Assembly (NCBI RefSeq): GCF_023525255.1
Contig: NZ_CP073355.1
Span: 372,001-436,000 of the forward strand
Origin: Thermospira aquatica
GTDB taxonomy: Bacteria; Spirochaetota; Brevinematia; Brevinematales; Thermospiraceae
Direction of reading: 5' to 3'
Length of the DNA stretch: 64,000 nucleotides
Part shown: positions 4,890 to 61,535 of the stretch, piece after piece
Position numbering within the stretch: the stretch's first letter is position 1
Layout: every line of letters starts with the position of its first letter
Translations under genes and position numbers: made by a program
The notes under the pieces: generated by a model
What the model was told of the DNA's origin: nothing
Databases searched by the model: none
Seen by the model: only the letters and a program-made list of their open reading frames with translations

Positions 4890-5667
4890 TTACTCTTCTG
4901 TACTCTCTTCGGCTGAAAAACTAAATTCAGCTATTTCCCATTTGTTCTTTTCTTTGTTGTACTTAAATGTCCCCAAGTCAGTGTATACTATATAACCATT
5001 ATCTAACACATAAATCTCTTCATTAGTTAACCATTTAAAAAAATATTCATAATCAAATTGCTTATCTAGTTCTTTTAGCTTGTCTATATTGGTAAGAGGA
5101 AATGATATATCTAAACTCCCATCAGAATAGATAACCCTATCAGCTATGTAATTTGTAATTGAAAATATACTTTTATGTTTTCTCATCGCCATCTCTATTT
5201 CTTTACAAATATTTATTATCTCCGCCTTAACCTTTTCCTTTTCATTCTCGTTTAATGGGATTTCAATTCGATCCATTTTCCACTTTTTATTTTTCTTGTC
5301 ATACTTAAATATACCAATTTTGGTGTATACATCACCCTCATCGTATGCCTCAATACGAAGATTAGCTATAAACCTCAAAAAGTCTTCATAGTCAAACTTC
5401 TTGTCAAGTTCTCTTAGCTTAACAATGTTCGTCAAAGGAAAAGTCATTTCTGTCTTCCCGTCAGAATAGACGACTATCTCAGACATATAGTTTGTAATCG
5501 AAAATATGCTTCTATTTCGTTTCATCGCTATTTCCATCTCTTTACAAACATTCGCTACCTCGGCTTCCATTTTTTCCCTTTCCTTCTCGGTTAACTCAAC
5601 CCCCTATCTCCTCCTTTACAACTTGAAAAAGTAACCGCTAAAGAGTTATCCATACAAATAATCTCAT
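4890..5667 (-). pseudogene. Two-domain immunity lipoprotein, signal peptide destroyed by frameshifts
   Basis: Residues encoded at 4890-5570 contain two tandem copies of a domain of about 105 residues, marked by KSIFSITNY, FPLTNI and LDKxFDYE. The same protein is intact at 37416-38192, where it starts with a lipoprotein signal. Here a 2-base insertion near 5602 and a 1-base deletion near 5645 break the signal region. It lies directly downstream of the MepA-like toxin remnant 5680-6461, as the intact copy does relative to its own toxin. The presumed role is protection from the murein peptidase. A single-domain relative lies at 13332-13802. Confidence 0.75.
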
Positions 5668-5679
5668 ACAACCTCCTCA

Positions 5680-6461
5680 TCAGTTTGAGATCTTTCTATA
5701 TTTAAGATGAATATGATTATCATGACCACTACTTCGCCTTAAGATATTTTCTCCAGAAGAATTCGTATATTTCCTTCCAAATCATTAACAATAATTATAT
5801 CATTAAAAAATCTCTGAAACTTCATACCCTTGAGGGCGTTCTTAATAGCAAAAATAATAAACTCTTCTGTCAGCTTCCGATCATAGTACGGATTGTTATA
5901 ATAGTTGGGATATTCCGGATGAAGTTTCCCATCCTTGGTAAAAAATTTAATGTCTACACTTTCTCCCGTTCTATGAGTTACATGTGGTGGAAACTCTCCA
6001 CCTCCAGGTCTGCTTATATCGTTTATGTACATGGGATAGTTAGGATATTTCCTATACCAACCCCAAATTACACGAGCAAGATAATCCGCAAAGTGTGGCG
6101 CAGCATATTTGTCGTCATTCTGCTCACCATAAGGTGCCCAGCCCTTGCCCTTGTCTAATCTGTTGTTTATATCTGCACTCTCACCTTCAGGTACATTAGT
6201 AATCGGCACTTTCGTAAAATAATCAGAGGTCTTCGGCCCAAAAAGACCACTCAGAAATTCATAACCTTTCTTTAGTGGTAAAAGGAAAAAGTTTCCTATA
6301 CTTTTCCCTACCCCTGCCCAATCTACCCCCTTCGCCTCCTCTTCTGTCATTACCTTACCATTCTTCAACACAAGCTTTTCACCTACCTTAAGGCCCTTTT
6401 TTATTTCGCTATCGCTCATGCCGTTGTAATTCCCAGTCCGCTTTGGGGCTTTAGATAGTCT
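5680..6461 (-). pseudogene. MepA-like murein endopeptidase toxin, frameshifted and 5'-truncated
   Basis: A LysM-like linker (SEIKKGLKVGEKLVLKNG) is followed by a LAS metallopeptidase domain with ISRPGGGEFPPHVTHRTGES and VDIKF, matching the HxxHQTGxxxDI zinc site of MepA. Compared with 38205-39140, base losses near 5780-5840 shift the frame, so the final HDNHIHL metal-binding segment is not translated. The 5' end stops matching its paralogue at 6461, a duplication border. It is probably non-functional. Confidence 0.78.
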
Positions 6462-6500
6462 ATTGTTATGCCTTTATCAACTAATATCATAACTACTACA

Positions 6501-7949
6501 CTAATCTTTTAACTTGTCTTCGACACAATAGATCTCTTTTCCTCTAAAGGCTATATAATGAAATCTTTTATTATCATCAAAAATAACATTCCCATTATTC
6601 TTTATCTCTCCCACAGAATAATATTTTTTATATTCTTTTTCATTTATTACAACAAAGTAATATTTCCCTTCACGAGCAATATAGACAAGAAATTTTCCAT
6701 CCGGACTAAATTGAGTAGAGCCCCTCCCAATATCATCATACCTTTTCTGCTCTTTACCATCGATTACTACAAATGACTTATTATCTTGACGAGCTGAATA
6801 AACAAGGTGACTCCCATCTGGAGAAAAAATAATAGAGTGTTCATCTATTAACTCATATCTTTTCCCTTCTTTTCCACTATCAACAACAAAATATTTATTA
6901 CTTTCTTTCACTAGATAGGCATACCTTGAGCAATCGAAATTAAAAATTACTCTACTTTCAACTTTCTCATATTTCTTTTCTATTTTTCCATTAATTACTA
7001 CAAATTGTTTTCCTCCTTCTCCTGCAACCCAAACAACTTTTTCTCCATGTGAGGTGAAATATGGCATAACCAGAATTTCTTCATATCCACCTGTTTCTTT
7101 CCCATTGACAACAACAAAGTACTTTTTCCCTTTTCTCACAGGATATACATAGCTTCTTCCATCAGGACTAAATACAATACTTCCTACTCCATCGTACTTT
7201 TTTTCTTCTTTCCCATTTATAACAGCAAACCACTTCCCAGCAACTTTATTTCCATCATTATTTATATTTTTAACAGTAGTCCCCGCTACATAAGCAAACT
7301 TTTTTCCATCATCATAGAGAGTTATTCTCGCAACACCATCATAGTATTTACCTTCTTCTCCATTAACAACTACAAACATTTTTTTGTCTCTCAAAGCTAC
7401 GTAAGCAAAAGTTATCCCATTATCGCTAAATGTAAGGGAGTTTGGCGATATATAATCGTACCTCTTTCCCTCTTTTTCATTCATCACTATGAAGTATTCT
7501 TCCTCCCTTGTATTTGAATTATATTCTTGAGCTGTATACACGAGCTGCCCTTTAGGACCATATAAAAGTTTCGCACTATACCCTCCAAAAGAAAAAGGAT
7601 CTTTCCCAATTCCATCATATTTTTTGCTCTCTTTTCTCATTTGGTCTCTCTCAACCACCACTAACCACTTGTCTCCTTCTTTTGCAATATAGGCAAGCTC
7701 CTTACTATCAGGACTAAAAACAAGAGACCCCTTCCTTATATCATCATATCTTTTACTTTCTTTCCCATTCAATACTACCGCATATTTATTGTTTCTTCTC
7801 ACTATAAAAGCCGTTTTTCTCCCATCAGGACTTATAACAAAAGTTCCAGGTACTATTTCTTTATCTATTCTCCCGATAAATACCTCCTTCGAAAACACCA
7901 TGCTGCTGCACACAAATATAATACTTATAAAAATTTTTCCCCTACACAT
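6501..7949 (-). CDS. Secreted beta-propeller (WD40/PD40-like) protein, probable immunity protein
   Basis: I chose ATG 7949 because AGGAGA precedes it and the residues after it (MCRGKIFISIIFVCSSMVFS) form a signal peptide; a longer upstream frame exists. About ten repeats of roughly 45 residues follow, each of the form SPDGxxxAYxA, then FVVxNGKE, then KxYDxI. This is typical of PD40/TolB-like propeller blades. It lies just downstream of the orphan toxin 7969-8940, whose stop falls 20 bp upstream, in the position immunity genes occupy throughout the array. Role as immunity is inferred from position. No similar propeller occurs elsewhere in the window. Confidence 0.78.
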   Translation of the reverse strand: MCRGKIFISIIFVCSSMVFSKEVFIGRIDKEIVPGTFVISPDGRKTAFIVRRNNKYAVVLNGKESKRYDDIRKGSLVFSPDSKELAYIAKEGDKWLVVVERDQMRKESKKYDGIGKDPFSFGGYSAKLLYGPKGQLVYTAQEYNSNTREEEYFIVMNEKEGKRYDYISPNSLTFSDNGITFAYVALRDKKMFVVVNGEEGKYYDGVARITLYDDGKKFAYVAGTTVKNINNDGNKVAGKWFAVINGKEEKKYDGVGSIVFSPDGRSYVYPVRKGKKYFVVVNGKETGGYEEILVMPYFTSHGEKVVWVAGEGGKQFVVINGKIEKKYEKVESRVIFNFDCSRYAYLVKESNKYFVVDSGKEGKRYELIDEHSIIFSPDGSHLVYSARQDNKSFVVIDGKEQKRYDDIGRGSTQFSPDGKFLVYIAREGKYYFVVINEKEYKKYYSVGEIKNNGNVIFDDNKRFHYIAFRGKEIYCVEDKLKD

Positions 7950-7968
7950 TGGTTTCTCTCCTAGTAAT

Positions 7969-8940
7969 TTATTGTTTTTTTTCCATCCCATTCTTCTGGC
8001 GCCATTTACTATATTTTTCATAATCAAAATGAATAAAACTCTCTGTGTTTACTTTATGAAAGTAGATACAGCTTGGGCTCTTTATTGAATTAAGATATTC
8101 ATCGACGATATAACTACCTAAGCTTTCCTCATATTTTAAAATGTATCTTCTTATATCATCAGACATTAAACTTTTTAATGCTGGTTTTCCCAATAAATCA
8201 AACAGAAAACTTCCTGCATTCTCCCAACTCTCACTGTTATCCACAAGCTTATCAAGCTCACTCCCTCCAAACCAATTATTACACAAACCTTCCATTATGC
8301 TGTCAATTTTCCGAATGGGATCAAATAAAGTACCTGGTGGAATATTCTCCTCAAGAGCCTTTATAAAAGGGTCAATTTCAATAGAACCTAATTCCACCTG
8401 GTTGTAAAGCATTCCATCCCATACCAAACCTTCTCCCTCATAACTAACATCCCAACTGTATAATTTACTGGGATCATCCTCACCTCCCGCCATCCCCTTT
8501 ACACCGGGAAGAGGCTGCTTAACAAAATCAAATGGAGCACTTACTAAATTCACGGCACTAGAAAAAAATCCATACACTACACCACTCATCACACTCAAAA
8601 AATCATCCCTTTTGACAACTCCTGTATCAACATAGTTTCTCACCTTTTTATCGCTAAAATTATATACCCTAAGAGGATCATAAATAAGCTCCAAAAGCCT
8701 ATCCTGTCCTTCTGGTCTAACTGTTGTTTCATCAAGATTAAGCACACTCTCATTTATTTTACTAATTATTCCCCCTCGCATTACATAAGGTTCTCCTTGT
8801 ATTAGTAATTTTTCAATCTCAATTCCATATTTATTCTTTATTACTTGTAGATCTTCTGCTCCTTTGACTATTAACAAACTCCTCCCGCTCATATCTAATC
8901 CATACGGATTACCCGTCATCGCAAACATCGCTCCAGCCAT
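7969..8940 (-). CDS. Orphan polymorphic-toxin C-terminus, payload of unknown family
   Basis: The N-terminus carries the end of the shared core, KYEDVAMAGAMFAMTG followed by the junction NPYGLDMSGRS. The frame is open upstream to about 8980 before a stop. The roughly 300 residues after the junction are unique in this window and contain no motif I recognise. They include a hydrophobic stretch (VYGFFSSAVNLVSAPFDFV) that might insert in or cross a membrane. The first ATG lies in the core remnant and there is no secretion signal, so this looks like a displaced C-terminal module. Its partner is the propeller protein downstream. Confidence 0.65.
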   Translation of the reverse strand: MAGAMFAMTGNPYGLDMSGRSLLIVKGAEDLQVIKNKYGIEIEKLLIQGEPYVMRGGIISKINESVLNLDETTVRPEGQDRLLELIYDPLRVYNFSDKKVRNYVDTGVVKRDDFLSVMSGVVYGFFSSAVNLVSAPFDFVKQPLPGVKGMAGGEDDPSKLYSWDVSYEGEGLVWDGMLYNQVELGSIEIDPFIKALEENIPPGTLFDPIRKIDSIMEGLCNNWFGGSELDKLVDNSESWENAGSFLFDLLGKPALKSLMSDDIRRYILKYEESLGSYIVDEYLNSIKSPSCIYFHKVNTESFIHFDYEKYSKWRQKNGMEKKQ

Positions 8941-9036: not shown

Positions 9037-9930
9037 TTATTCATACACAAACCTTATCTCCGTTATACACACGTTCTTACTCTTCGCACCGGGATATACT
9101 TCCTTAACTACTATCCTTGCGATTTTTCCACCGCGACCTATTATCCCGTCAACGGCTTCCTCATCCTCACCGTAAACCTTGGCCAGATTGGGGAAGTCCA
9201 ATTCCACCGCCTGATAGCCCGGTTTGTCCTCCAGCGTAAAATCCTTCCGGTACAGCAAGAGGGAGCGATTTGTGACATAACTCAAATTCTCAGCCACATA
9301 GTAATTCCCGTTGGATAACGTGGCAGAAACAACGCCCTGCAGAATATCATCGATGTCTTTCGTATTCTGCGGAATCACTTTCCTCTGAACGCCCTCGAAC
9401 ACCCCCGTCTCATATATTTCCAGCGTTATCACTTTCGGCCTTGAATATCCTTTGAAGTCCGAAGGGTTGCCGCTCCATATTTCCATCCGGTACGGCGCAC
9501 CGTCTATGCGCACTATCTGGTGGTCCTTATGGTTCTTAAATGGCCCGTAACACCATATATCCATAAGTATATAATCACTCTTATCAAATTCCCAATATGT
9601 GTTGGTATTTTTATCAAAAGCCTTTCTTACTCCTTCTGCTGGCAATTTATCCATTCTTTTTTCAATTTCTTTGTAATTGTAACGTTGTAATTCTGATTTT
9701 GAAGTTTGGGCAAATAATATACCATTTCCAAATATCATATTTGTATATTCGTTAAAGGAATATTCTCCGGAGGAATAATATTCTCCACTATCATTCCACT
9801 TAACGATAGCCCATTCAACTTCATTAGATGCTTTTTCTTTTAAAGCTTCTGAATATATACCTTTCATTCTTTGAGAGTTACCGCAATATGTTAAGCCAAG
9901 TATCAAAATAATTATCATAAAGTATTTCAT
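9037..9930 (-). CDS. Lipoprotein with discoidin-like domain, probable immunity for the C39-like toxin
   Basis: MKYFMIIILILGLTYCGNS is a lipoprotein signal with its lipobox cysteine. AFDKNTNTYWEF and the C-terminal VYPGAKSKNVCITEIRF match the outline of galactose-binding/discoidin-like, NADase-type glycan-binding domains (LFDGxxxTxW ... YPGxxxxxxCISEI). Its ATG overlaps the stop of the upstream toxin as ATGA (9927-9930), so the two are translationally coupled. A paralogue at 46989-47858 has the same C-terminal half and a divergent N-terminal half. Role as immunity is inferred from pairing. Confidence 0.8.
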   Translation of the reverse strand: MKYFMIIILILGLTYCGNSQRMKGIYSEALKEKASNEVEWAIVKWNDSGEYYSSGEYSFNEYTNMIFGNGILFAQTSKSELQRYNYKEIEKRMDKLPAEGVRKAFDKNTNTYWEFDKSDYILMDIWCYGPFKNHKDHQIVRIDGAPYRMEIWSGNPSDFKGYSRPKVITLEIYETGVFEGVQRKVIPQNTKDIDDILQGVVSATLSNGNYYVAENLSYVTNRSLLLYRKDFTLEDKPGYQAVELDFPNLAKVYGEDEEAVDGIIGRGGKIARIVVKEVYPGAKSKNVCITEIRFVYE

Positions 9931-11800
9931 TTTTTCTTACCTCCTTCTTTTGCCCTGAAATTAGATATCTTTTTCCAGAAATCTTCCAATTTTTCTTTCA
10001 AAGTGTATTCTTTGATATAAAGGTATGCCTTCCCCAACTGTATTTTCTGTACAGCCTCCCAGTTCAAGAAATATACTCCCTTCTTATCGTATTCCTTGCC
10101 TGCATCGTTGATATTGTATTTCCAGCCCTCTGCATCCGGCTTCTCATACTCGCCGAACGGGTCCTGAATAACTATTCCATCATCCCTTACTTCCAGTAAT
10201 TTAACGATATGCCCGAATGAATGAACATCCCCATTCGGCTTTAGCCTTTGAAATCTCCCGGAGAGAAGCACTTTGTCCTTATCATCCATATAGTTCCATA
10301 ACTTCTGATAATGCTTTTTAATCAGAGCGGTGTTAGTTCCGTGTATTCCCTGAATTTCACCAACGACTTTATTCAACTTATACTTTTTCTCATTTGTTAC
10401 TTGGCTAGGGTCATCGGTTTTTTCATAGTACCAGGTCGAGTAGTCATTCTCATTACCCTTAACATAAGGTTCAACCTTTCCGCTTAAAACAGCCAGCTTA
10501 TATAATGTGGCAAATGAGCCTCTATAGTCATTCTTATACATATTCTGCCGTGCCATTTCTATGTAATCCGCCGCAGTCATGTCCTCCCGTTTCGCTCCCT
10601 TCACCAAAGAAAGCTTTCCACCGCTCTTGCCGTTATAGACGTCCTTCACATTGATGCCCATCTCTACTAGCGCCATCGCAAGCGAGGTCTCATTGCACAT
10701 TACGCCGCCAAGCGCGCCTTTAGAACCATCTCCTTTAATACCATAAGACTTATTATATTTCTGGTTGATGTACTCAATATCAATTTCTTTTCCCTCTGCG
10801 TTTGTGTATTTTATCTTCAAATCACTCCCGCTTTCCCATTCAAAATCGCTTAAATCACCCGAACTGACCGCGTAAACAACTTAGATACAGACGAGTACTC
10901 GCTATCATTCTTATACAAATCTATTCCGACATTTTCTCTTATGCCTTCCAGTACTCTTGTCTGCATTCCGCTTGCGCCAAGTTCACGAATATATGCGATT
11001 AATCTATCATTTCCCGCTAAAGCTGTTCCTCCAAGGAAGCCTTCCCTTGCCAAAACAGAGGCGTAAAAAGCAATCTTTTCCGCTGAACCGCCGTCAAGTT
11101 TTAAAGCGTCTTTATTAAGCCTTATTGTATTTCCTTCTGACTGCCCATAGTGATTTTCATCATCCAGGTCAAAAGTTACATTCATTTCGCCATTGATTAC
11201 CTTCATCACCACTTCAGCGGCGGCTTTATCTCTACTCAGCATTGCCATATTTACATAGCTTATCCTCGATAAGCCCTCGTCTCCTCCGTGAACATTCTTA
11301 TACTGAAAACCTACATAGTTTAAACTACCTATCGCATCCACAAGGTTGACAAGCCCAATCCCTCCGCTCGTATCATTTACTATCTGCCCATTGGTTGTGA
11401 ATCCTATCCCTACACCGCCCCCAAGGCTTATCCTAAAATTTCCTCCCCACGCATAATGCACTGCTTCCCCTGCTATACTCCCTATCGTGTTCGCAAAGTT
11501 GTTAAGCTTCATCTCATAAAATAGTGATACATTGTTAGTCAACGCCTCGCTCGATATCCTGTCTATAAATGATAAATTGCCATCCGTGTATCTCCCTCCA
11601 AGTTCACCTCCAACCCATCCCCCAACAAAGCCACTCGCAAGTCCCATCGTCGTACTTTTCAGTAAATTATTCCAGTCATATGAATCCCATTGCCATTGCC
11701 CATTACTTATGCTATAGCACTTCGTAAACGCCATCAAACCTCCACTTATAAACCCTTCCGTCATCTTCTGCATACCAAATGCCGCAGCTGTACTGAACCA
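9927..11800 (-). pseudogene. Core plus C39-like peptidase toxin, split by a 4-base deletion
   Basis: 10850-11773 encodes the glycine-rich core (SLNYVGFQYKNVHGGDEGLS), and 9927-10820 the payload. Compared with the intact 47855-49711, four bases are missing near 10880 (CGTAAACAAC against CGTAAGCCAACAGC), which shifts the frame. The payload has VMCNETSLAMAL (candidate catalytic Cys) and GHIVKLLEVRDDGIVIQDPF (His and Asp), a C39/papain-like arrangement. The core has REGFL where other cores have HEGFH. The payload could still be made from an internal start and is coupled to the immunity gene at 9930. Confidence 0.75.
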
Positions 11801-11803
11801 GCC

Positions 11804-12118: not shown

Positions 12119-12964
12119 TCATTCCTTCTTTAAAGACTTTATATAATTACTCACCTCTTCTGGATTTTCAGGATCAAAATTGACAGGATCAAATGCTATA
12201 CCTTTTGACTTATTCTTTCTGCATCCCTCTGTAGTTTTTTTCCGATTTTCATAGTACTTTTCTTCAGGCATAAAGTATAAACTCAGAGGAAGATATTCTA
12301 CTTTATCTGTCCTGACATCATAGTATTTTTTAATTATATTTGCTGATGCCATGTACTCTTCTTTCTTTGGAAGATTTGAGCCAGCTATCTGTAATTTTAA
12401 ATCTCTATCAAGATCGTCATAGTAAAGAGTACCAAGTTCTTCTCCGATCTTACCACTTTTCCTTATTTCTTCCCTTCTACTTTTTGTAAATATCATTTCC
12501 TTCTTGTAATACAAAAGCCTGATGCAACCTACTTCACCTTCCCTTATTCCTGCCCGCTTGAAATCTTCTATCATTTTCGTCGGTGTATAAAATCCCTTGT
12601 TCAGATCAATCATCATCTTTATCTCTCCATCTTCTCCTATCAATAAACCCTTCTTTATTCCCTTTACTATCTTCGGATGAAGCTCAACAAGAAGATAATC
12701 TATCTTATCATCTCCATCTGTATCCCATTTCCATATCGCTTTATATTCCCCACCTCCAAAAAAATTCTTTGCCTTCTCCTTCACTATCTCACTATCCACT
12801 GTGAAATACTCCCACTTCTCAAAATATCCTTCAGGAACCCCGGGAATCTCTGCCATTTCTCCCGAACCATCTCTACTTTTTGCCTCTTTCTGCCTCTCCT
12901 TCGAACAACTCACTATCTCTAACAAAAGTATCATAACCATCAAGATTTTAGCTATCTGCTTCAT
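12119..12964 (-). CDS. Lipoprotein, probable immunity for the amidase-like remnant
   Basis: MKQIAKILMVMILLLEIVSC is a lipoprotein signal. The mature part of about 260 residues contains an acidic segment, WKWDTDGDDKIDYLLVELHP, resembling a calcium-binding or VCBS-like loop, but I cannot name a family. It is the first gene downstream of the truncated toxin 12988-13302, matching the toxin-then-immunity order seen elsewhere. No second copy occurs in the window. Confidence 0.65.
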   Translation of the reverse strand: MKQIAKILMVMILLLEIVSCSKERQKEAKSRDGSGEMAEIPGVPEGYFEKWEYFTVDSEIVKEKAKNFFGGGEYKAIWKWDTDGDDKIDYLLVELHPKIVKGIKKGLLIGEDGEIKMMIDLNKGFYTPTKMIEDFKRAGIREGEVGCIRLLYYKKEMIFTKSRREEIRKSGKIGEELGTLYYDDLDRDLKLQIAGSNLPKKEEYMASANIIKKYYDVRTDKVEYLPLSLYFMPEEKYYENRKKTTEGCRKNKSKGIAFDPVNFDPENPEEVSNYIKSLKKE

Positions 12965-12987
12965 TATATAACTCCTCCAGAATATAT

Positions 12988-13302
12988 TTAAGGTTTATAT
13001 CTATATCTCTTAAACAGTTCTCGCCAGTCTATTTGCCTGTATTCATAAACTGGATTATAGGAAATCTCTGGATTCTTTTTATCAGGATGTAAAGCCCACT
13101 TTTCAAAGCTTTCTAACATTATTTCACGTGTTCCGTCTTCTCCTGCACTATACACGTAAACTTTACCATTGGCTATTTTCGAAACCATCATTACGTGATC
13201 CCAGTCATTAGGACTACTGTTACCATCCCAGTTGCTATCGTAGTTTACATATATTAGATTACCCGGTTGAAGTTGATCCTTTGTAATCTCCTTTTGTAAC
13301 AC
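12988..13302 (-). pseudogene. CHAP/amidase-like toxin C-terminus, catalytic cysteine region missing
   Basis: The 104 residues contain LQPGNLIYVNYDS, then DWDHVMMVSKIANGKVYVYS. These match the second half of CHAP, NlpC/P60 and amidase_6-type folds (GDLIxW ... HVxIV, with the catalytic His in DHVMMV). The first half with the nucleophilic Cys is absent because the frame begins right against the stop of the next cassette's immunity gene (13332). It is therefore a truncated payload, kept together with its likely partner 12119-12964. Confidence 0.6.
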
Positions 13303-13331: not shown

Positions 13332-13802
13332 TTATTCTTCCATGCCTTCTTCTCCTACGAAGCTAAATTCATCTATTACCCATTTGCCCCTCTTCTTATC
13401 ATATCTATAGTAAACTCCATAGCCATTAACCCAGTCTTCAAAAACTAGGAGTTCCTGCTCCTGGAGGGCCCTTATAAAGTACTCATAATCAAACTTTTTA
13501 TCTAATTCTCTCAATTTATCAATATTTGTTATGGGGAAATACATCTCCGTTGTTCCATCAAAGTAAACTACTGTGTCACCCAGGTGGTTGGTAAAGGAAA
13601 ATAGGCTCTTTTTCTTCTTTAAAGCTTGAATAATATCCTTATTGATCTTTGTAATGGCAATCTTAATATTTTCTTCCTCCTCTTTTGTTAATTTCTTCTC
13701 TTCCGTTACCACCTTCTCTTCGGGAACTTTCTTCTTCGCCTCACAGGCAGTTAAACCAAAAGCATACAATATTACTCCCATAATCATAAGCATCCTCTTC
13801 AT
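13332..13802 (-). CDS. Single-domain immunity lipoprotein for MepA-like toxin
   Basis: I placed the start at ATG 13802 (TAAGGAGG upstream), which gives the lipoprotein signal MKRMLMIMGVILYAFGLTAC. A charged linker of E and K leads to one domain with KKKSLFSFTNH, FPITNIDKLRELDKKFDYE and a tryptophan-rich strand. The same domain occurs twice in tandem at 37416-38192. All three members lie directly downstream of MepA-like toxins, which supports a role as periplasmic inhibitor of that peptidase. Confidence 0.8.
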   Translation of the reverse strand: MKRMLMIMGVILYAFGLTACEAKKKVPEEKVVTEEKKLTKEEEENIKIAITKINKDIIQALKKKKSLFSFTNHLGDTVVYFDGTTEMYFPITNIDKLRELDKKFDYEYFIRALQEQELLVFEDWVNGYGVYYRYDKKRGKWVIDEFSFVGEEGMEE

Positions 13803-13818
13803 TGTTACCTCCTTAATA

Positions 13819-14688
13819 TTATTTTCTTCTATATTGAAAATCAATATGGTCATCATGACCAGGTGCGTATCTAATAATTGGTCTACCTAAAGAATTTGTA
13901 TAAATATTCTTATACTTTTCAATTATACTCTCATCATTAAAATTAACCTGTCTGAGCTCCCACCCTTCCGGCACACTCTGAATAGCAAGAATAAGAAATT
14001 CCTCAGTCTTTTGCCGATCATACGTCCTACACTCATAATAAGCCCCAGGAGCAGGAGCTTTCCCATCCGTCGTCATAAATTTTATATCCACACTTTCTCC
14101 CGTTTGATGAGTCTTATGAGGGGGAAACGGTCCACCCCCAGGTCGACTTATATCATTGATGCGTATTGGATCATTAGGATGTCTTTTATGCCAGTCGTCA
14201 ATTACTCTTGCTAGATAAGAGGCAAAAGGAAGAGTCGCCGCTTTATCATTATCCTGGACACCATACGGTTCCCACCCCTCTCCTTTGTTCAATATGTAAC
14301 AGATCTGGGGATTTCCATTAGTGACGGAGATTTTCGTAAAATAATGAAATGTCGTATCTCCCGAAAGTCCCTTCCACCACCCTTGAACACCTTCAGATAT
14401 AGACTTCCACAAATTCTTCCCTATCTCTCCCCAATCTATCCCCTTCGCCTCCTCTTCTGTCATTACCTTGCCATTCTTCAACACAAGTGTTTCACCTACC
14501 TTAAGGCTCTTCTTTATCTCACTATCACTCATGCCATTGTAATGCCCACTCCTCTTTAAGGCTCCTATAACATCCTGGACAGGTACACCTAGCGCCTGGG
14601 CTATGCCCTCCACAGTGTTCTTTTTACCTTCAGGCGTGTTTTGCCATTTCTCTACTACGGCTGTGATCTTGCTGCCGTTGGTTATCAA
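13819..14688 (-). CDS. MepA-like murein endopeptidase toxin module, one metal-site histidine replaced
   Basis: A LysM-like linker (GIAQALGVPVQDVIGALKR ... SLKVGETLVLKNG, residues 25-75) is followed by a LAS peptidase domain with ISRPGGGPFPPHKTHQTGES-VDI at about 165-190, close to the MepA HxxHQTGxxxDI motif. The C-terminal motif reads GHDDHIDFQY, where the family normally has HDDHxH, so the last histidine is aspartate. The only start is TTG, and the frame follows a stop shortly after the upstream immunity gene. This marks a module cut at its linker. It is paired with 13332-13802. Confidence 0.78.
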   Translation of the reverse strand: MITNGSKITAVVEKWQNTPEGKKNTVEGIAQALGVPVQDVIGALKRSGHYNGMSDSEIKKSLKVGETLVLKNGKVMTEEEAKGIDWGEIGKNLWKSISEGVQGWWKGLSGDTTFHYFTKISVTNGNPQICYILNKGEGWEPYGVQDNDKAATLPFASYLARVIDDWHKRHPNDPIRINDISRPGGGPFPPHKTHQTGESVDIKFMTTDGKAPAPGAYYECRTYDRQKTEEFLILAIQSVPEGWELRQVNFNDESIIEKYKNIYTNSLGRPIIRYAPGHDDHIDFQYRRK

Positions 14689-14706: not shown

Positions 14707-15498
14707 TTACTTATACTTATTCCTCCGTGGACCTTCCATTTTAACAATGATATCATCCCCTTTTACAAAAAATAACTTCTCCTCTGCATTACTAAAAACC
14801 TTATTCAGTGTCTCTCTATCAAAGTCCCATTTCCCATTCTCTCCCTTCGAACCCAAAATTACATACCTCCCTTGCACCTTATAAAAATACTCCCTGCCGT
14901 AAGGATCAAATATGTCCTCTTTCTCTATAAAAAAGGGATAAGTGCTTTGAACAAGTTCTTTCAAGCTAGAAGGGGTTGAAGGAGCCTGTAGCAAAGCCCA
15001 GTCTATGGCCTGGAAATTAATCAGATTTTCTTTTGTTTTTTTATCAAAAACTACATCTCTGTATGGTTCATAATAATCCCTATCTAAAAGATAATCCCAC
15101 CAGTTACTGGCTATATTAGTAAAAAACTCATACTCAAGAAGATACACTAATAATAATTGACTGTAAGTAAGCTTACTTGACCCTCTCAGACTTTCAAAAT
15201 ATTTATCCTTACCTTCAAATAACACTTCAATTTTCTTTTTCCTTTCTTTGGGGATATACGCCATAGCCCGCACTGCACCCTTCCACGGTTCTATGGAAGG
15301 CGCCTCATAAATGAGATATCCATTACTCTCTCCTACAAAACGAGGAGGGAATTCAAAGTAGCGATGGGGAATATCATAATCAATAAGCTTAAAGGTGATT
15401 TCACTCTCTGCTCTTTCCAAAGGATCAAATCTAAAATAATCTACAACCAAAAATACCACAAATAAAAAGAGTAAAAATACTAACACAAATCGTAGCAT
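14707..15498 (-). CDS. Membrane-anchored immunity protein with pseudopilin-like C-terminus
   Basis: An N-terminal membrane segment (FVLVFLLFLFVVFLVVDYF) lacks a lipobox, so the protein is probably anchored by this helix with its body in the periplasm. The C-terminal part, DIFDPYGREYFYKVQGRYVI followed by LGSKGENGKWD, resembles the DPWGxxYxY...SxGxDG segment of type II secretion pseudopilins (GspG), although the order of genes argues for immunity. Homologues at 39149-39940 and 45418-46203 also sit after the same toxin type or its remnant. Confidence 0.72.
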   Translation of the reverse strand: MLRFVLVFLLFLFVVFLVVDYFRFDPLERAESEITFKLIDYDIPHRYFEFPPRFVGESNGYLIYEAPSIEPWKGAVRAMAYIPKERKKKIEVLFEGKDKYFESLRGSSKLTYSQLLLVYLLEYEFFTNIASNWWDYLLDRDYYEPYRDVVFDKKTKENLINFQAIDWALLQAPSTPSSLKELVQSTYPFFIEKEDIFDPYGREYFYKVQGRYVILGSKGENGKWDFDRETLNKVFSNAEEKLFFVKGDDIIVKMEGPRRNKYK

Positions 15499-17222: not shown

Positions 17223-17246
17223 GCTAGCAAGGGTGGTAGTCTAACC

Positions 17247-18585: not shown

Positions 18586-18614
18586 CTCTCGCCTCCTCCT
18601 ATAATATATTTTCC

Positions 18615-28515: not shown

Positions 28516-28532
28516 ATCTCCCCTCCTCATCA

Positions 28533-34245: not shown

Positions 34246-34247
34246 TG

Positions 34248-54297: not shown

Positions 54298-54585
54298 TTA
54301 CCTACACGGCTTTGTTGGTAAAATAAAAATATCACCTTCTATCAGCAACCCTTTTTCTAATAATAAATTAAATTGTTCTCTTTCCATCGTTAATACTAAA
54401 TACTTTTGGTCAATCCCTTCTTTTTTTCTCGCTGTACCAAAACCAACAATTTTAATACTAAATGTTCTTTTGTCAACTTCCAGAATATACTGACCCAACT
54501 CTATTTTCTCATTGAAACTATAATTAGCAAGCACTTGATTCTTTTCCCTAATTATAAATAAACTATCAATTCTTAATCTTTTCAT
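54298..54585 (-). CDS. Small cytoplasmic protein, probable immunity for zincin toxin
   Basis: The 95-residue protein without signal peptide has alternating strands (QYILEVDKRTFSIKIVGFGT). It lies 11 bp downstream of the HEYMH-containing toxin 54597-55148, in immunity position, with a GGGGAAGAG ribosome site. The family is not recognised. Its lack of an export signal suggests that the partner toxin would act in the cytoplasm. Confidence 0.6.
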   Translation of the reverse strand: MKRLRIDSLFIIREKNQVLANYSFNEKIELGQYILEVDKRTFSIKIVGFGTARKKEGIDQKYLVLTMEREQFNLLLEKGLLIEGDIFILPTKPCR

Positions 54586-54596: not shown

Positions 54597-55148
54597 CTAC
54601 TTTGGAGTTATATTAAACAACTTCTGATGCCTATTTAAGAAAGATTCAATTATAGTATCTTCTCCTATCCTTGGATTTTTCCACTTGTTCTGGAACATAT
54701 AATGCATATATTCGTGCATAATATCCCATTTGGTAGCATCTTTTGTGTAAGTAATTACTGATTTTCCATTTTCCATCAGTATATGAGAGGCTCGTGCACC
54801 TTGATAATTAAGATATGTAAGCATATCCCCCGATGCTTCTTCAACAATTAAGTTAGGACGTAATTTTAACATGAAAATAATTTCATCTCTTGTAGCCACT
54901 TTACCAACTGTCGATGCTGTTTTAACTAACCTCGTAGGAGACTTCACCCCCGAGACTACCTTCATGCTCTTTACAACACCAATACCAATCGTTGCCAATA
55001 CAAATACCTCTTCTCCAGCCCTCTCCCAATCCACACCACCTCTCTGAGTTCCCCACACGTATCGAATGGCAGCTGGTAGACCATGCTCATAGCTATATTC
55101 AAGCTCCTTAGGCCTTTTAATCATGATTCTTTTCTCCAACTTTCTCAA
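54597..55148 (-). CDS. Zincin-like metallopeptidase toxin with short pre-toxin region
   Basis: Residues 30-90 (TQRGGVDWERAGEEVFVLAT ... VKSMKVVSGVKSPTRLVKTA) match the pre-toxin part of 57339-57890. The C-terminal domain has TKDATKWDIMHEYMHYMFQN, an HExxH zinc site near residue 143, as in zincin-like polymorphic-toxin domains. The N-terminus (MRKLEKRIMIKRPKELEYSY) lacks the lipoprotein signal that its relative has, so export is uncertain. It is paired with 54298-54585. Confidence 0.75.
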   Translation of the reverse strand: MRKLEKRIMIKRPKELEYSYEHGLPAAIRYVWGTQRGGVDWERAGEEVFVLATIGIGVVKSMKVVSGVKSPTRLVKTASTVGKVATRDEIIFMLKLRPNLIVEEASGDMLTYLNYQGARASHILMENGKSVITYTKDATKWDIMHEYMHYMFQNKWKNPRIGEDTIIESFLNRHQKLFNITPK

Positions 55149-57068: not shown

Positions 57069-57326
57069 TTATATTTTTCTATATTCTGCTAATGAAATAA
57101 TATTTCTGTAATCATTATTAGCCTCATTAACATATTTCTTTAGTAAATCTATATTTCCATTTGCCAGTTTTAAAATACTAGCATATAAGCGATATTTGCC
57201 TCTTTCCGATTCTGAATTATACCCTTCTAAGATACTAAGTATGCATTCAATATCGTAATCCTTAAATTCTCTCTTTATAATTCTTATAATATCAGATTTA
57301 GTGATATGAGGGATTTTTTGTTTCAT
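57069..57326 (-). CDS. Small cytoplasmic immunity-like protein
   Basis: The 85-residue, helix-rich protein (ITKSDIIRIIKREFKDYDIE, LYASILKLANGNIDLLKKYV) has no signal peptide. It lies 12 bp downstream of the lipoprotein-type toxin 57339-57890, the immunity position. I do not recognise the family. Confidence 0.62.
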   Translation of the reverse strand: MKQKIPHITKSDIIRIIKREFKDYDIECILSILEGYNSESERGKYRLYASILKLANGNIDLLKKYVNEANNDYRNIISLAEYRKI

Positions 57327-57338: not shown

Positions 57339-57890
57339 TCATTTATGTAATTGTTTTACCATTTTAGTAAAATCAGATGTCCACCTATACCCATGACTTT
57401 CCAAATAATATATTTCTTTCGCCAATACAGAACTTGGGTCTAGTAAACTAGGATCATACTTACCTGCAAAAATCACTTCATCTCCACGCTTTACTATTTC
57501 CTGAAGATGCCTCTCATTTTTAGCCCATGTCCAAGCTTCATCTGTTACATCTAAAAATTCTGCCCCTATATTCTTTGCAAATTCTCTATATGTACTTCTT
57601 GGCCCAATAACTGATTTACCCTCCGTCGATGCGGCTTTAACTACCCTCGTAATAGACTTCCCACCCGAAACTACCTTCGTGCCTTTTACAGCCCCAATAC
57701 CAATGGTTGCCACTCCAAATGCCTCTTCTCCAGCCCTCTCCCAATCCACAGGACCTCTCTGAGTTCCCAATACGGTTCGAATGGCATAATGGCTAAAGCC
57801 TAATCTCCCTCGCTGCTCTGGAACTATCACAGCAGTCCTTGCCACACAACCTACTACTAAAAAACACAATACCCAAACCCCTTTCTTCAT
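57339..57890 (-). CDS. Lipoprotein-anchored short polymorphic toxin
   Basis: MKKGVWVLCFLVVGCVARTA is a lipoprotein signal. Residues 40-95 (LGTQRGPVDWERAGEEAFGV ... VKGTKVVSGGKSITRVVKAA) are the pre-toxin region shared with 54597-55148. The C-terminal 85 residues (YREFAKNIGAEFLDVTDEAW ... DEVIFAGKYDPSLLDPSSVL) are the payload, with no motif I can assign. A complete small toxin with its own export signal contrasts with the long core proteins. The partner is 57069-57326. Confidence 0.7.
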   Translation of the reverse strand: MKKGVWVLCFLVVGCVARTAVIVPEQRGRLGFSHYAIRTVLGTQRGPVDWERAGEEAFGVATIGIGAVKGTKVVSGGKSITRVVKAASTEGKSVIGPRSTYREFAKNIGAEFLDVTDEAWTWAKNERHLQEIVKRGDEVIFAGKYDPSLLDPSSVLAKEIYYLESHGYRWTSDFTKMVKQLHK

Positions 57891-57955
57891 TTCCCCATCC
57901 TTTTCTAAAATTTTCTCCCTCTCCCCGGATATTTCCAGGGAGAGGGGAATGGTAT

Positions 57956-58513
57956 TTAATCTTCGAGTTTAAACTTCCAGGCTGCGTTTACCACCTTGAG
58001 ATCCTTTGCCTCGGGAATATCCCGATACAACATATCCAGATCCTCTTTCATCGTGTCAGTCGAAACGATGTCGTAGGTTATCCAGTAAGAATCATCCTTG
58101 GTATAACCACTTTGATGAAATCGAACATAGCCAAGATAGGTGATCGTATTCTCCTTCACCTCAAACTCGTAACCAACAGGGAAAGACCGAGCCCCGCTAT
58201 CTCCCCCACTCACACCCCATTCCTCGATAGCGTACGTCCCTGGTTTCACCCGATAGAAATAGTACCCCTTGGTCGACGATGTAGCTCCTATCGAAAAAGG
58301 CTTTTCACCGTTTGCTGACAGCGGTAAAATCTGGAGATTCATCATCAGGTTAAACGAGGTGTTTTCCCTGATAAGCTCACGCGTCCCATAAAGATAGCCC
58401 CAGGGACCACCAGCCTCTTGTTTCAAAAAGGTCTCCCGTGTCAGGCTCTCCTTACACCCCATCGTCACCAACACAAACAACACCATACTTACCCATGCGA
58501 TACATCTCTTCAT
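57956..58513 (-). CDS. Lipoprotein of unknown function, possibly orphan immunity
   Basis: ATG 58513 (GGAGG upstream) starts the lipobox signal MKRCIAWVSMVLFVLVTMGC. The mature part of about 165 residues is beta-rich (GYYFYRVKPGTYAIEEWGVS, YEFEVKENTITYLGYVRF), like a DUF2846-type or carboxypeptidase-regulatory-like fold that formats a G-x-Y strand. No toxin precedes it; the upstream gene is another immunity-type protein, so if it is immunity it is an orphan. Confidence 0.6.
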   Translation of the reverse strand: MKRCIAWVSMVLFVLVTMGCKESLTRETFLKQEAGGPWGYLYGTRELIRENTSFNLMMNLQILPLSANGEKPFSIGATSSTKGYYFYRVKPGTYAIEEWGVSGGDSGARSFPVGYEFEVKENTITYLGYVRFHQSGYTKDDSYWITYDIVSTDTMKEDLDMLYRDIPEAKDLKVVNAAWKFKLED

Positions 58514-58568
58514 CTTTTCCTCCATTTTTTATATATTTTATGGTCTTATCTCTTTTTGTGCCTCATCA

Positions 58569-59582
58569 TCAATGCCCTGGATGACCCATTTCCAGTATCT
58601 CGTCCATCCCATCCTCCTCATCATACTCAATACCCTCCAGAAAGGTACCAGAAAAGTGCCTGAAATCGGTCGTTTTCTCCCACTGTTTCCCCCCCAGAGG
58701 CTTCACCATGAGTTCAGAAAACTCTGAAAGCTTCCAGTCACCTATCCTGTTCGCTACCGCTCTATTCATCTTTACTCTGCCTGTTTTGGGATCTCGTATC
58801 GTGAAATCCTCCCCACTGTAGTCTTTTCTTGTCTTGCGGTAGACGTAGATCCCCCCATCCCTCCTATCAAACTCAATGATATCCACATCATGGGTGATCC
58901 CCATCTTCTTGAGACTCCCGGCAAACCGACTGCTGGGATCATAAGAGATAAAATGGGGCACGTAGGCAGGGATTCGGGCAAGAAAACGATCTTTGTACAC
59001 CTCGAGAAAATTCTTCTTATCCTCTTCGAGAACAACTACATCGTATTTTTTACCCTGGTAAAAGAATTCTATCTCACTTATACACGTATCATCATATCGG
59101 GTTCCAGGATAGGTGGAGAGCACTTCAAAAAAGAGCCACTGAATCTTTACAGCTCTTCCCAACTTTATTTCTTGAGGTCCCCACTCATCTTTTAATGGAA
59201 ACACTTCTTCCTTGATCACATATTCATCCTCATTTTCTCCCTCCTTTTCTACATAGAAAGCTCCTGTTATACCAATGTTTTTTACCCTGTTGTTAGCCAG
59301 ATACACATTTGTATTCTTTTGATACCCATTGTAAATCACTATAGTGTCAATAAAAAAGGGTTCTCTAAATACTATTCGAAAATAAGGAGGGACATCAGGC
59401 GTTGTGTAGTTGGTGTTTACAGCTACACAGGTAGAGAGGTTTTTGTCTAACGCCAGATAAGGAAAATAGGGGGGTACCACCGCCTGCCAGGCATTCTCTC
59501 TATTCGTTCCATCTAGGCGTATCTGCCCATACGCTACCGTCATCCCCAAGATGAACCATACTATCACAAGAAACCGTTTCAT
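58569..59582 (-). CDS. Secreted discoidin-like protein, probable immunity for L,D-transpeptidase-like toxin
   Basis: MKRFLVIVWFILGMTVAYG is a signal peptide. The discoidin-like half has ALDKNLSTCVAVN, IVIYNGYQKNTNVYLANNRV and LSTYPGTRYDDTCISEIEFF, as in 17575-18585 and 27460-28515. The C-terminal half differs, apart from the WEKTTDFRHFSGTFLEG tail. AAAGGAGGAAG precedes its ATG. The upstream neighbour is the scrap 59596-59766, which keeps the HGCQTI motif of the same payload type, so the pairing is preserved even though the toxin is almost gone. Confidence 0.82.
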   Translation of the reverse strand: MKRFLVIVWFILGMTVAYGQIRLDGTNRENAWQAVVPPYFPYLALDKNLSTCVAVNTNYTTPDVPPYFRIVFREPFFIDTIVIYNGYQKNTNVYLANNRVKNIGITGAFYVEKEGENEDEYVIKEEVFPLKDEWGPQEIKLGRAVKIQWLFFEVLSTYPGTRYDDTCISEIEFFYQGKKYDVVVLEEDKKNFLEVYKDRFLARIPAYVPHFISYDPSSRFAGSLKKMGITHDVDIIEFDRRDGGIYVYRKTRKDYSGEDFTIRDPKTGRVKMNRAVANRIGDWKLSEFSELMVKPLGGKQWEKTTDFRHFSGTFLEGIEYDEEDGMDEILEMGHPGH

Positions 59583-59595
59583 ATTCTTCCTCCTT

Positions 59596-59772: not shown

Positions 59773-60933
59773 CTACTCCTCCTCATCCAGATATATATCC
59801 ACCATCCAGCCTTTAATAGGTTTACCCTTCTTATCCTTAACGCCAGTGTCTATGTATACCCAATTACCCGTCCTGTCCCCAATCGTAAAAGTAACGTCCG
59901 ACCGTTCGAGTAGCTTTACCCTTGCGCCCTTCTTTAGCTTTAGCAATACAGCCGAGTTTGTAGAAGCTTCGGAACGCACGTTTACATTGTCGCCGGTGAG
60001 AATGTAATATATTTCAGGACTTAAATATAAATCTAGTACCCAGCCCTTTATGGTATTACCCTCCTTATCCTTTACGCCCGTGTCTATATATACCCAATAG
60101 CCTGTCCTGTCTCCAATGATTGTAATCTCCGTCCTCTCCAGAAATTTTACCCTTGTACCCTTCTTTAGCTTGAATAGTACAGCTGAGTTTGTAGATGCTT
60201 TGGTACGTACGTTTACATTGTCGCCGGTGAGAATGTAGTATGTTTCAAGTACAGGCGCTTTATCCGATTGTGCCCATTTGGGGAATTTGGATTTGTCTGT
60301 GAGGACTTCAGTTTCCCAAGTGCTACCACCTTTTAATTGTTCTTCATCATCATAGTAAAATAAATTTGCCACCTCTCCTGTTTTTCCCGTTAATAGTATC
60401 ACATTTCTATATCTATAAATGTTGCCCGTTAAGTGAATTCTTACTAGTTCACTGTAATAAAATTTTTCTTCTGTTCTAATTTTATATGTTCCGTTCGAGT
60501 AAATACGATAATAGACAGGCGGACCATCTACTTCATGGCAGGTAATAAACATTTCCTGTATCTTTTTTACTGGTTTAAAATCTCCCCATCCCGCAAGATC
60601 CTCCCTCTGAACCCAGCCTTTGAGAGTGGGATACTCCCACCCTCTTTCAGTTTTAATCATCTTTGCTTCGTGAGGAATTCTTCTTGAATCCACATAATAC
60701 CATATCTGATTTGTTCCTGAATAATTGATATTGGTCTTTGTAATAATAGCTACATCCTGAAGAAAGGGTAAGATTTCAATTAAACCTGAATCTATATTTG
60801 GTTCTTTATACAATATTGCTCCCTCAGTTATTACTATAGCACCATTGGTTCCAAAAAATTGTAATTCACTCGGTTCTGAATAAACTTTCTGTATATTTAA
60901 TATTATCATTATCAATATAATAAAATATTTCAT
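59773..60933 (-). CDS. Secreted protein with three SH3-like domains, probable immunity for M15-like toxin
   Basis: A signal peptide (MKYFIILIMIILNIQKVYS) is followed by an N-terminal SH3-like unit and a beta-rich middle homologous to 49976-50899. Two nearly identical C-terminal SH3 units follow, at about 240-305 and 308-384, each with YYILTGDNVNVR, STNSAVL, LKKG and YIDTGVKDK. The tandem copies are recent, differing by a few residues. It follows the LAS peptidase 60943-61326. The extra unit suggests that SH3 number can change. Confidence 0.84.
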   Translation of the reverse strand: MKYFIILIMIILNIQKVYSEPSELQFFGTNGAIVITEGAILYKEPNIDSGLIEILPFLQDVAIITKTNINYSGTNQIWYYVDSRRIPHEAKMIKTERGWEYPTLKGWVQREDLAGWGDFKPVKKIQEMFITCHEVDGPPVYYRIYSNGTYKIRTEEKFYYSELVRIHLTGNIYRYRNVILLTGKTGEVANLFYYDDEEQLKGGSTWETEVLTDKSKFPKWAQSDKAPVLETYYILTGDNVNVRTKASTNSAVLFKLKKGTRVKFLERTEITIIGDRTGYWVYIDTGVKDKEGNTIKGWVLDLYLSPEIYYILTGDNVNVRSEASTNSAVLLKLKKGARVKLLERSDVTFTIGDRTGNWVYIDTGVKDKKGKPIKGWMVDIYLDEEE

Positions 60934-60942
60934 TTTATCCTC

Positions 60943-61326
60943 CTATTGCCTCCATATAGTAATATGAAGGTGATTGTTATGTGCAATCATCAGTCGGTAG
61001 AATTTTGAATTCACATTTTGTTGCTTAGGTTGATTCCAGATATTTGGTTCATCGTAATAATTATTAGGGTCTCTGCTAAGCATTCTTGAAGGATTCAACA
61101 CTTGCGATACTCTTGGGTCATTATAGAAAGCGGTATAAACTTCTTCTATAAATTCAGTATTTTGATCATACTGATTGGCATATGCCGGAGTGTTATTAAA
61201 CCTTACCGTTACACCATCCCTTGTTGCAGCCACAATATCTATCCCTCTTCCCGACCCATGAGGGCTTGTGGTGCTATTCCTCCACAGGCTTGATACCTGA
61301 ATACTATCCACATTCACGCTCCTCAC
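60943..61326 (-). CDS. Small M15/LAS-like metallopeptidase, probable cell-wall toxin
   Basis: The first 33 residues (RSVNVDSIQVSSLWRNSTTS-PHGSGRGIDI) are identical to 50905-51285 apart from one change. The middle (NNTPAYANQYDQNTEFIEEV) diverges, and the C-terminus has HNNHLHITI. H, D and HxH of the LAS zinc site are present. The start is the GTG at 61326, overlapping the stop of 61323-61535. The operon layout equals that at 49976-51494. Confidence 0.78.
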   Translation of the reverse strand: MRSVNVDSIQVSSLWRNSTTSPHGSGRGIDIVAATRDGVTVRFNNTPAYANQYDQNTEFIEEVYTAFYNDPRVSQVLNPSRMLSRDPNNYYDEPNIWNQPKQQNVNSKFYRLMIAHNNHLHITIWRQ

Positions 61327-61535
61327 TGACTACTTCTATCCAGAACCATCCCCATCCAACCTACGTCATGCATAACACCCTCCAGAAATGTCCCACTAAA
61401 GTCTTTAAAATACGGCGTCTTTTCCCACTCTTTACTCTCTCGTGGTCTTACCATAAGCCCATACACCACACCTCCAGCTACTGCAAACTTTCTCACACCA
61501 CGCTTCAGTGCTTCTTCATACTCTTTCCACTTCAT
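61323..61535 (-). CDS. Small leader protein of the second M15-toxin operon
   Basis: The 70 residues are almost identical to 51282-51494 (KEYEEALKRGVRKFAVAGGV ... FKDFSGTFLEG), with the same GGAGG and the same overlap with the next start. High conservation between two otherwise diverging operons suggests either recent duplication of this end or a retained function. Confidence 0.6.
   Translation of the reverse strand: MKWKEYEEALKRGVRKFAVAGGVVYGLMVRPRESKEWEKTPYFKDFSGTFLEGVMHDVGWMGMVLDRSSQ

Follow-up and report, generated by a model that had tools for sequence, protein, structure and literature searches.

The window analysed here, bases 372001-436000 (64,000 nucleotides) of the single-contig, 2,515,453-base genome of Thermospira aquatica (a deep-branching spirochaete, order Brevinematales), carries on its minus strand a long array of candidate toxin/immunity cassettes. 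Minus-strand open reading frames (ORFs) were assigned as toxin, toxin remnant or immunity gene from the ORF lists, with classes often given by eye, and are named below by their lower window coordinate. Between 4890 and 61326 there are 23 toxin or remnant ORFs, in ~21 cassettes, together with 25 candidate immunity ORFs (Table 1). A preliminary description had counted at least 18 toxin or remnant genes, nearly all paired with a distinct exported or small minus-strand protein and themselves mostly devoid of export signals; the count has risen, and both other statements stand, as a simple hydropathy scan of ORF N-termini gave an export-type start in 21 of the 25 immunity ORFs and in one toxin ORF (57339). 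A query with the core protein found in most of the toxin ORFs matched 30 places in the whole genome, namely the window array and clusters at 467.7, 779.6, 1632-1646 and 2162-2178 kb, in which 15 further cassettes (1, 1, 7 and 6, respectively) were read by eye, bringing the genome total to ~36 cassettes in 2.5 Mb. In what follows, G001 and G002 denote genus-mate (sister) species, G006 a further genome with core-type cassettes, and L numbers extracted loci.

The core protein and its junction

The longest ORF (18615-22232) shows the domain order core A, zincin-like stretch, LysM-like linker, core B and payload. The zincin-like stretch reads HEGFH...ERMAYE in one branch and a degenerate REGVLID in another; its AlphaFold model was of low confidence (predicted local distance difference test score, pLDDT, 47). 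At E 0.01, neither Pfam nor NCBIfam gave a match for this ORF, and the core gave no match of note among PDB sequences and none among plasmids. Among 392 spirochaete genomes, a core profile matched four, all Brevinematales and one of them the present genome. Of two scans of named genome contigs, the first found nothing and the second a single locus, a 9471-base core-bearing contig of a Brevinematales metagenome-assembled genome. An apparent paralogy of core A and core B (99.8% profile match) was due to one sequence present in both alignments and left no similarity once this was removed.

The conserved part ends at a sharp, fixed junction, the motif GRS, with variable C-terminal modules beyond it. 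Eleven core tails picked for having a GRS tail (six from the window, four from elsewhere in the genome and one from G002) were aligned on that motif. Mean identity over the 11 tails was ~71% in the stretch of at most 63 residues that ends in GRS; over the next 60 residues it was 17.7% in 46 of the 55 pairs, against 17.8 +/- 4.5% for shuffled tails, and the remaining nine pairs have a payload or linker in common. The degenerate branch has SGNDL or SGSDL at the GRS position.

DNA comparisons bear out the modularity proposed earlier: the same front precedes different payloads (29693-30202 vs 31983-32493, 97%; 8876-11957 vs 46828-49908, 91%), and the same payload follows different fronts (18688-19982 vs 28630-29903, 94.8%; 14417-16211 vs 45101-46916, 87%). 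That the array is built on one core holds for most of it, not all, because tblastn found core or linker pieces in only 15 of the 23 toxin ORFs. Two others, 57339 and 54597, have a common front different from the main core, and six (33205, 50905, 60943, 12988, 25292 and 9927) have no core piece within them, although 25292 and 9927 are payloads split from the core ORFs 26245 and 10850 (unbroken comparators L036:16516-18360 and window 47855-49711).

Payload classes

Judged from their sequences, the payloads look mostly wall-directed (L,D-transpeptidase-, M74-, NlpC/P60-, C39- and M15-type), plus one ParB-type nuclease. Matches over the Pfam cut-off were obtained for M74 murein endopeptidase (23265) and ParB_N (40697), and for LysM in a relative at 1637 kb (E 3.5e-8); those to M74 (13819), C39_2 (9927), NlpC/P60 (the G002 relative of 12988) and YkuD (L033, E 6e-4; 30925, E 0.005) lay below it, and the commonest YkuD-type subtype (18618-19295) had no YkuD match in Pfam. 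Among ten YkuD-type payloads, of which the other nine are 20-94% identical to the first, the H, S and C of the H...SxGC site are invariant; C, H and D are kept in the C39-like and papain-like payloads (by eye), and H, D and H in the M15-like ones. The payloads of 15516 and 46221, whose neighbouring immunity gene is membrane-anchored, have a DxYDF motif like that of colicin M and may be colicin M-like; neither Pfam nor PDB gave a match for this payload, and its AlphaFold (AF2) model was of low confidence (pLDDT 42). Four payloads searched against plasmids found none, bar one chance match at E 3. A separate full-length toxin at 779.6 kb (L033 7533-10625) combines an N-terminus of its own with a YkuD-type payload.

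Most of these payload types are also known as housekeeping wall enzymes, and the genes might encode the cell's own wall enzymes or structural proteins instead of toxins. We consider this most improbable, given that 22 of the 23 toxin ORFs are without an export signal, that a ParB-type nuclease stands behind the same core tail, and that an abrupt junction and a paired next gene recur. An origin in phage is suggested by a 166-amino-acid (aa) YkuD-type ORF of G002 (L091 6246-6746; G002:C55 ~42246-42745), which has the payload motif (HQGGTTWDWSHGC) and was matched by six of seven payloads searched against this one locus (E 1e-9 to 5e-4). Beside it lies a small membrane-type ORF, with terminase-, portal- and tape-measure-like genes nearby (by eye). 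It is probably a lysis enzyme of a phage and a relative of the payloads; such a role agrees with a wall target, and the ORF may point to the source of the payload. That the array as a whole consists of phage-derived lysin genes and is no toxin system is nevertheless very unlikely: the core protein had no match in 50,697 phage records, nor the core B profile in the viral contigs scanned, no phage gene was seen by eye in the window ORF lists, and the junctions and immunity genes speak against it as well. A milder version, in which only the payload enzymes derive from phage lysins, is compatible with a toxin system.

Immunity genes

The four immunity ORFs that have no export-type start are the first gene after the ParB nuclease, the gene after each of the two second-front toxins, and 4890, which is without the start segment of its full copy 37416, a gene with a lipobox. 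Immunity candidates beside wall-type payloads are exported except for 4890, and the one beside ParB is unexported; the predicted compartment mostly fits the putative target of the payload. The pairing of payload and immunity gene recurs across species of the order. Eight of the ten YkuD-type payloads are followed by members of one F5/8-type immunity family (26-99.7% identical), both G006 cassettes included, and all three NlpC-type payloads by one lipoprotein family, G002 included; the tenth YkuD-type payload (L037 5950) precedes a truncated copy, which was left out of the comparison. Toxin and immunity ORFs also differ in their start signals. Counted at the first start codon only, ribosome sites of 5 nt or longer with a spacing of 4-12 nt were found in 16 of the 25 immunity ORFs vs one of the 23 toxins, and first starts other than ATG in one immunity ORF vs 13 toxins.

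A structured repeat and a parental-like gene

Seven copies of a ~290-bp element occur in this genome, every one of them directly before a toxin fragment. In G002 (copies L049-L071), where 40 of 74 candidates were scored, there are at least 48 matches, full or partial, most of them between ordinary genes (by eye), and 22 copies were long enough for alignment. One window copy (29895-30205) folds better than its shuffles (z -5.9). Across 21 copies, compensatory changes occur in 11 of 34 predicted pairs, with a small covariation term (-2.8 kcal/mol); no Rfam family reached its gathering score, and one chance match fell in the stretch. In two places (window 32199-37365 vs L034; window 27132-29903 vs L037 (4553)) the homology between clusters passes through the immunity gene and the repeat and changes at the 3' edge of the repeat, a pattern that fits a recombination hinge and also plain repeat-driven rearrangement.

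The additional N-terminal part of a G006 cassette, used as a query, led to a 2887-aa ORF in G002 that starts with a signal peptide by eye, MKKAVIGLVFFVMQGWVSG. Its alignment with the G006 protein reaches the start of core B (E 5e-20); its match to core B of this genome is weak (E 0.001), and it contains VREGVLIDS, as in the degenerate zincin here (E 0.004). The coding sequence reads on into 54 bp that match an inner part of one repeat copy exactly, after which comes a second repeat piece. It is conceivable, though unlikely, that a dedicated structured hinge of ~280 nt caps both the toxin cassettes and the broken end of the parental gene. Recombination between repeats could then connect the exported N-terminal part with warheads, and the polymorphic-toxin system, directed mainly at the wall, would be restricted to a single spirochaete order. 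With one genome compared per species, the three species of the genus differ strongly, from ~36 cassettes here to two core pieces on short contigs in G002 and one 47-residue remnant match in G001.

Selection between copies

Copies were compared in 15 groups, with w denoting the ratio of non-silent to silent change. Of 37 payload and immunity comparisons with a defined w, 26 gave 0.07-0.54, and the C39-type group of 42748/42013 accounted for all 11 remaining ones, at 0.58-6.3; two comparisons were without any silent change. Core comparisons gave 0.28-0.52, and payload comparisons outside the C39-type (C39b) group 0.18-0.49.

These values bear on two alternatives to a working toxin reservoir. One is that the array is a graveyard, in which the remains of toxin genes, broken by insertion sequence (IS) elements and repeat-driven rearrangement, have no present function. 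Broken or shortened cassettes (26245/25292, 10850/9927 and 5739), IS copies at 3404-4839 and 34430-37365, of which the latter interrupt the array at ~34.4-37.4 kb, and the parental gene, not found here and cut at the repeat in G002, make this possible; the low w in those 26 comparisons, the ribosome sites and signals kept in the immunity genes and the payload-immunity pairings kept across the order make it doubtful. The other, which we hold to be a serious possibility while short of even odds, is that only the immunity genes matter: toxin fragments would be unused passengers, and the value of the array would lie in protection against relatives. Start signals are present in the immunity genes and mostly not in the toxins, and three immunity-type genes (57956, 58569 and 39149) have no preceding toxin, the L033 copy of the pair 57956/58569 standing after a full YkuD-type toxin. 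Against it, toxin parts are retained beside the immunity genes, and payloads outside the C39-type group show the low w given above.

Within the C39-type group, the L034 immunity copy (12537-13244) and window 42016-42723 are identical over long stretches, and their differences are nearly all amino-acid-changing. The comparison gave 25.8 differing sites that are non-silent against 1.2 that are silent (w 6.3, P 0.013), and that of the L034 copy with L036 a w of 3.5 (P 0.029), two of the 15 groups having been looked at for these P values. Strong positive selection on the toxin-immunity pair was not upheld, since with the measured silent-site share P is weaker and the payload not significant; nor was a diversity-generating retroelement, as changes were not in excess at A.

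Proposed function

Given the junction, the paired immunity genes and the exchange of fronts and payloads, we propose that the array is a reservoir of orphan polymorphic-toxin/immunity cassettes, a reading to which we give a probability of about 0.85. It agrees with the preliminary description and is the best supported; we infer toxicity, the route of delivery and swapping from sequence features. Once joined to an exported parental protein, payloads would harm other bacteria, mostly in the periplasm by attack on peptidoglycan or its precursor; the producer would be protected in that compartment by its exported immunity proteins. The cassettes could serve in two ways: (i) as an immunity bank, the immunity genes looking translatable on their own, and (ii) as a bank of spare warheads, which recombination through the core or the structured repeat might join to the parental gene. 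As an exported parental gene of this core was not found here, perhaps only the immunity half is active at present.

Several observations weigh against a toxin reservoir. The parental gene with a secretion signal that the preliminary description proposed to look for exists in the sister species, but a homologue of the 2887-aa protein was not found in this genome at E 1e-6. The G002 gene, too, has no payload attached at present, since no ORF of at least 250 aa lies 3' of it before the next gene, and the warhead bank would therefore be without a present user. Under a relaxed test (any start in the first 20 codons, 4-nt motif), a ribosome site is present in 14 of the 23 toxins vs 22 of the 25 immunity ORFs, so that the contrast between them is one of degree and some toxins may be translated as they stand. 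The YkuD-type payload 30925 has another partner and breaks the YkuD/F5-8 pairing. The class of several payloads is based on motifs or on matches below threshold, and searches of the payloads against PDB sequences gave nothing of note, the best being a C39 peptidase at E 0.55 for payload group A5. In the C39-type group the excess on the payload side lacks significance (P 0.18-0.54), and 24.7 non-silent differences separate the payloads of 42748 and L036 vs only 2.8 between their immunity genes; toxin-immunity co-change in this pair is at most weakly hinted at.

Relation to known systems

Polymorphic toxin systems are described, in excerpts of PMC3482391, as having variable C-terminal toxins behind a conserved part, an adjacent immunity gene, standalone recombining cassettes and an export domain. 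The array has the sharp junction with variable C-termini, the adjacent immunity gene tied to the payload, with 30925 as the one exception, and standalone cassettes with switched homology, for which recombination is the probable mechanism. Its anatomy is that of orphan polymorphic-toxin modules, to judge from the predicted proteins, and the defining features of Rhs, type VI secretion system (T6SS) effectors and TIGR04388 proteins are missing.

Orphan modules of contact-dependent inhibition (CDI), as presented in excerpts of PMC3150448 (Poole et al. 2011), are close in layout: fragments mostly without a translation start, a junction motif kept (VENN there, GRS here), an expressible immunity gene each, arrays and IS insertions. 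The same excerpts call the 11 orphan cdiA-CT/cdiI pairs of E. coli EC869 an extensive array; the window has ~21 cassettes, with payloads mostly wall-directed, and, unlike CDI, no main cdiBAI gene set was seen here. CDI is unlikely to be the home of the core. Neither haemagglutinin repeats nor DUF638/VENN appeared in Pfam scans of the core ORFs or the G002 parental protein, and the best match to TpsB (ShlB, PF03865) was below the cut-off (17.5 vs 22.7 bits) here and absent in G002 and G006, although no control genome exceeded the cut-off either. The silent cassettes of Rhs resemble the array in that orphan tips with immunity genes lie next to a conserved core that has a junction motif (excerpts of PMC3150448); RHS repeats (PF05593) had no match in this genome and matched two of 14 controls.

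MafB/MafI of Neisseria (PMC5349182) likewise combine a genus-confined, signal-peptide-bearing N-terminal domain with variable C-termini, several islands and cassettes for alternative C-termini, whereas the N-terminal part here is different, ~2400 aa long and found only in the sister species, and the MafB N-terminal domain DUF1020 was absent from Pfam scans of the core ORFs and the G002 parental protein. TIGR04388 (Lepto_longest) proteins are also spirochaetal, with a signal peptide, a very long N-terminal region and a variable C-terminus, but the hidden Markov model had no match in this genome, nor was there profile-profile similarity to the core or parental protein; the accession was not found mentioned in open-licence literature. 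By eye, the TIGR04388 proteins of spirochaete genomes (L116-L124) are themselves polymorphic-toxin-like, with a Hint-like domain before the C-terminus in six of nine long copies and LysM-like and lysozyme-like parts in one variable C-terminus. The YkuD-type payloads recall the T6SS effectors Tlde1, in which, according to excerpts of PMC9638812, an L,D-transpeptidase-type site with H and (S/T)xGC is used as a toxin with an immunity partner; the H to C spacing is 12 in the payloads here vs 10 in Tlde1a (H121, C131), and the payloads here have no PDB sequence match. The T6SS sheath gene VipB (PF05943) was found in none of three genomes searched, with a match in the E. coli control. Among the open-licence papers listed by literature searches, none has a title on such a system in Brevinematales, which does not prove that none exists. 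The array would represent an apparent polymorphic-toxin family of its own in this order, distinguished by its core, its junction motif and a long exported front. The number of cassettes, the preponderance of wall enzymes and the agreement of the immunity compartment with the payload make it a good place to study how orphan arrays arise, are kept up and are used.

Features of the array and its surroundings

Table 1. Features of the array, in window coordinates.
Position	Strand	Feature	Evidence
60943..61326	-	M15-like (H..D..HxH) peptidase payload fragment	H, G, D and H unchanged in 4 sequences; class by motif
59773..60933	-	exported immunity candidate, SH3-like	export signal; 22450-22672 (SH3 part of 22438) vs 60022-60241, 87% DNA
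57956..59582	-	two toxin-less immunity-type genes	57886-59751 vs L033, 96% DNA
57339..57890	-	second-front toxin with lipobox	ORF list, hydropathy scan
57069..57326	-	immunity candidate without export signal	hydropathy scan
54597..55148	-	second-front toxin, HEYMH motif	ORF translation
54298..54585	-	immunity candidate without export signal	hydropathy scan
50905..51285	-	M15-like payload fragment	motif alignment; no Pfam match
49976..50899	-	exported SH3_3 immunity candidate	PF08239 E 1.3e-8; signal
47855..49711	-	core A + degenerate zincin + C39-like payload	tblastn, alignments
46989..47858	-	exported immunity candidate	hydropathy scan
46221..46880	-	core tail to GRS + DxYDF-motif payload	tail alignment; possibly colicin M-like, by motif only
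45418..46203	-	immunity candidate, N-terminal membrane anchor	hydropathy scan
42748..45297	-	linker + core B start + core A + degenerate zincin + C39-like payload	tblastn, alignment
42013..42723	-	lipoprotein immunity candidate; L034 copy with excess amino-acid change	hydropathy scan, w comparison
40697..41884	-	zincin tail + ParB-type nuclease payload	match over cut-off to PF02195 (E 7.9e-10)
40168..40677	-	immunity candidate without export signal	hydropathy scan
39149..39940	-	membrane-anchored immunity-type gene, toxin-less	hydropathy scan
38205..39029	-	LysM-like linker + M74-type payload	46% identity to 23268-24233; class by that likeness, no own Pfam scan
37416..38192	-	lipoprotein immunity candidate	hydropathy scan; lipobox
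33205..34251	-	papain-like payload	C, H, D by eye
32510..33184	-	lipoprotein immunity candidate	hydropathy scan
32199..32490	-	structured repeat, cassette front	DNA comparison, repeat search, copy alignment
30925..32211	-	core B tail + diverged YkuD-type payload	sub-threshold Pfam match to PF03734 (E 0.005); payload alignment
30260..30904	-	lipoprotein immunity candidate	hydropathy scan
29909..30199	-	structured repeat, cassette front	29895-30205 as RNA folds with z -5.9
28533..29921	-	core B tail + L,D-transpeptidase-type payload	tblastn, payload alignment
27460..28533	-	exported F5/8-type (NADase_transloc) immunity candidate	PF25302 E 4.3e-24
27132..27427	-	structured repeat, cassette front	DNA comparison, repeat search
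26245..27108	-	core A remnant, break before payload	tblastn
25292..25909	-	C39-like payload remnant	payload alignment
24545..25267	-	lipoprotein immunity candidate	hydropathy scan
23265..24434	-	zincin + LysM-like linker + M74 murein endopeptidase payload	PF03411 E 5.1e-11, 43.1 bits vs cut-off 25
22438..23247	-	lipoprotein immunity candidate with SH3_3	PF08239 E 1.3e-9
18615..22232	-	longest ORF: core A + HExxH zincin-like + linker + core B + L,D-transpeptidase-type payload	tblastn, alignment
17575..18666	-	exported F5/8-type immunity candidate	PF25302 E 6e-12
17246..17542	-	structured repeat, cassette front	DNA comparison, repeat search
15516..17222	-	core A + zincin + DxYDF payload	tblastn, tail alignment; possibly colicin M-like, unconfirmed
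14707..15498	-	membrane-anchored immunity candidate	hydropathy scan
13819..14688	-	linker + M74-type payload	PF03411 E 1.4e-4, 22 bits, below cut-off 25
13332..13856	-	lipoprotein immunity candidate	hydropathy scan
12988..13302	-	NlpC/P60-type payload fragment	66% to G002 payload L021, itself PF00877 E 3.3e-4, below cut-off
12119..12964	-	lipoprotein immunity candidate	53% identity to G002 counterpart
10850..11773	-	core A remnant	tblastn
9927..10820	-	C39-like payload	PF13529 (C39_2) E 0.003, below cut-off
9037..9930	-	exported immunity candidate	hydropathy scan
7969..8940	-	core tail to GRS + payload of no recognised class	tail alignment; no Pfam match
6501..8027	-	exported PD40 propeller immunity candidate	PF07676 E 1e-12
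5739..6419	-	shortened M74-type cassette copy	3533-6451 vs 36078-38980, 96% DNA
4890..5570	-	copy of immunity gene 37416 without its signal	ORF list, hydropathy scan

The left flank of the array holds type I restriction-modification genes (HsdM-/HsdR-like by eye; window 1736-3391 and L030 17933-20000) and a Fic-like gene (by eye; window 520-1629). An IS of ~1.44 kb, DDE-type by eye, is present at window 3404-4839, 34430-35884 and 35885-37365, with further copies in or beside the other toxin clusters; a second, ISXO2-like IS lies at window 62516-63648 and recurs in L033. A degenerate motif of ~20 nt (GCTMTTMCC.TGTTGCAGT) forms irregular arrays with a spacing of 32-116 nt, too irregular for CRISPR, at window 51600-52740 and ~62130-62320 and in L033 (~12008-12379); in G002 the structured repeat is flanked by a similar motif (GCTGAAACATGGTAATAGC).

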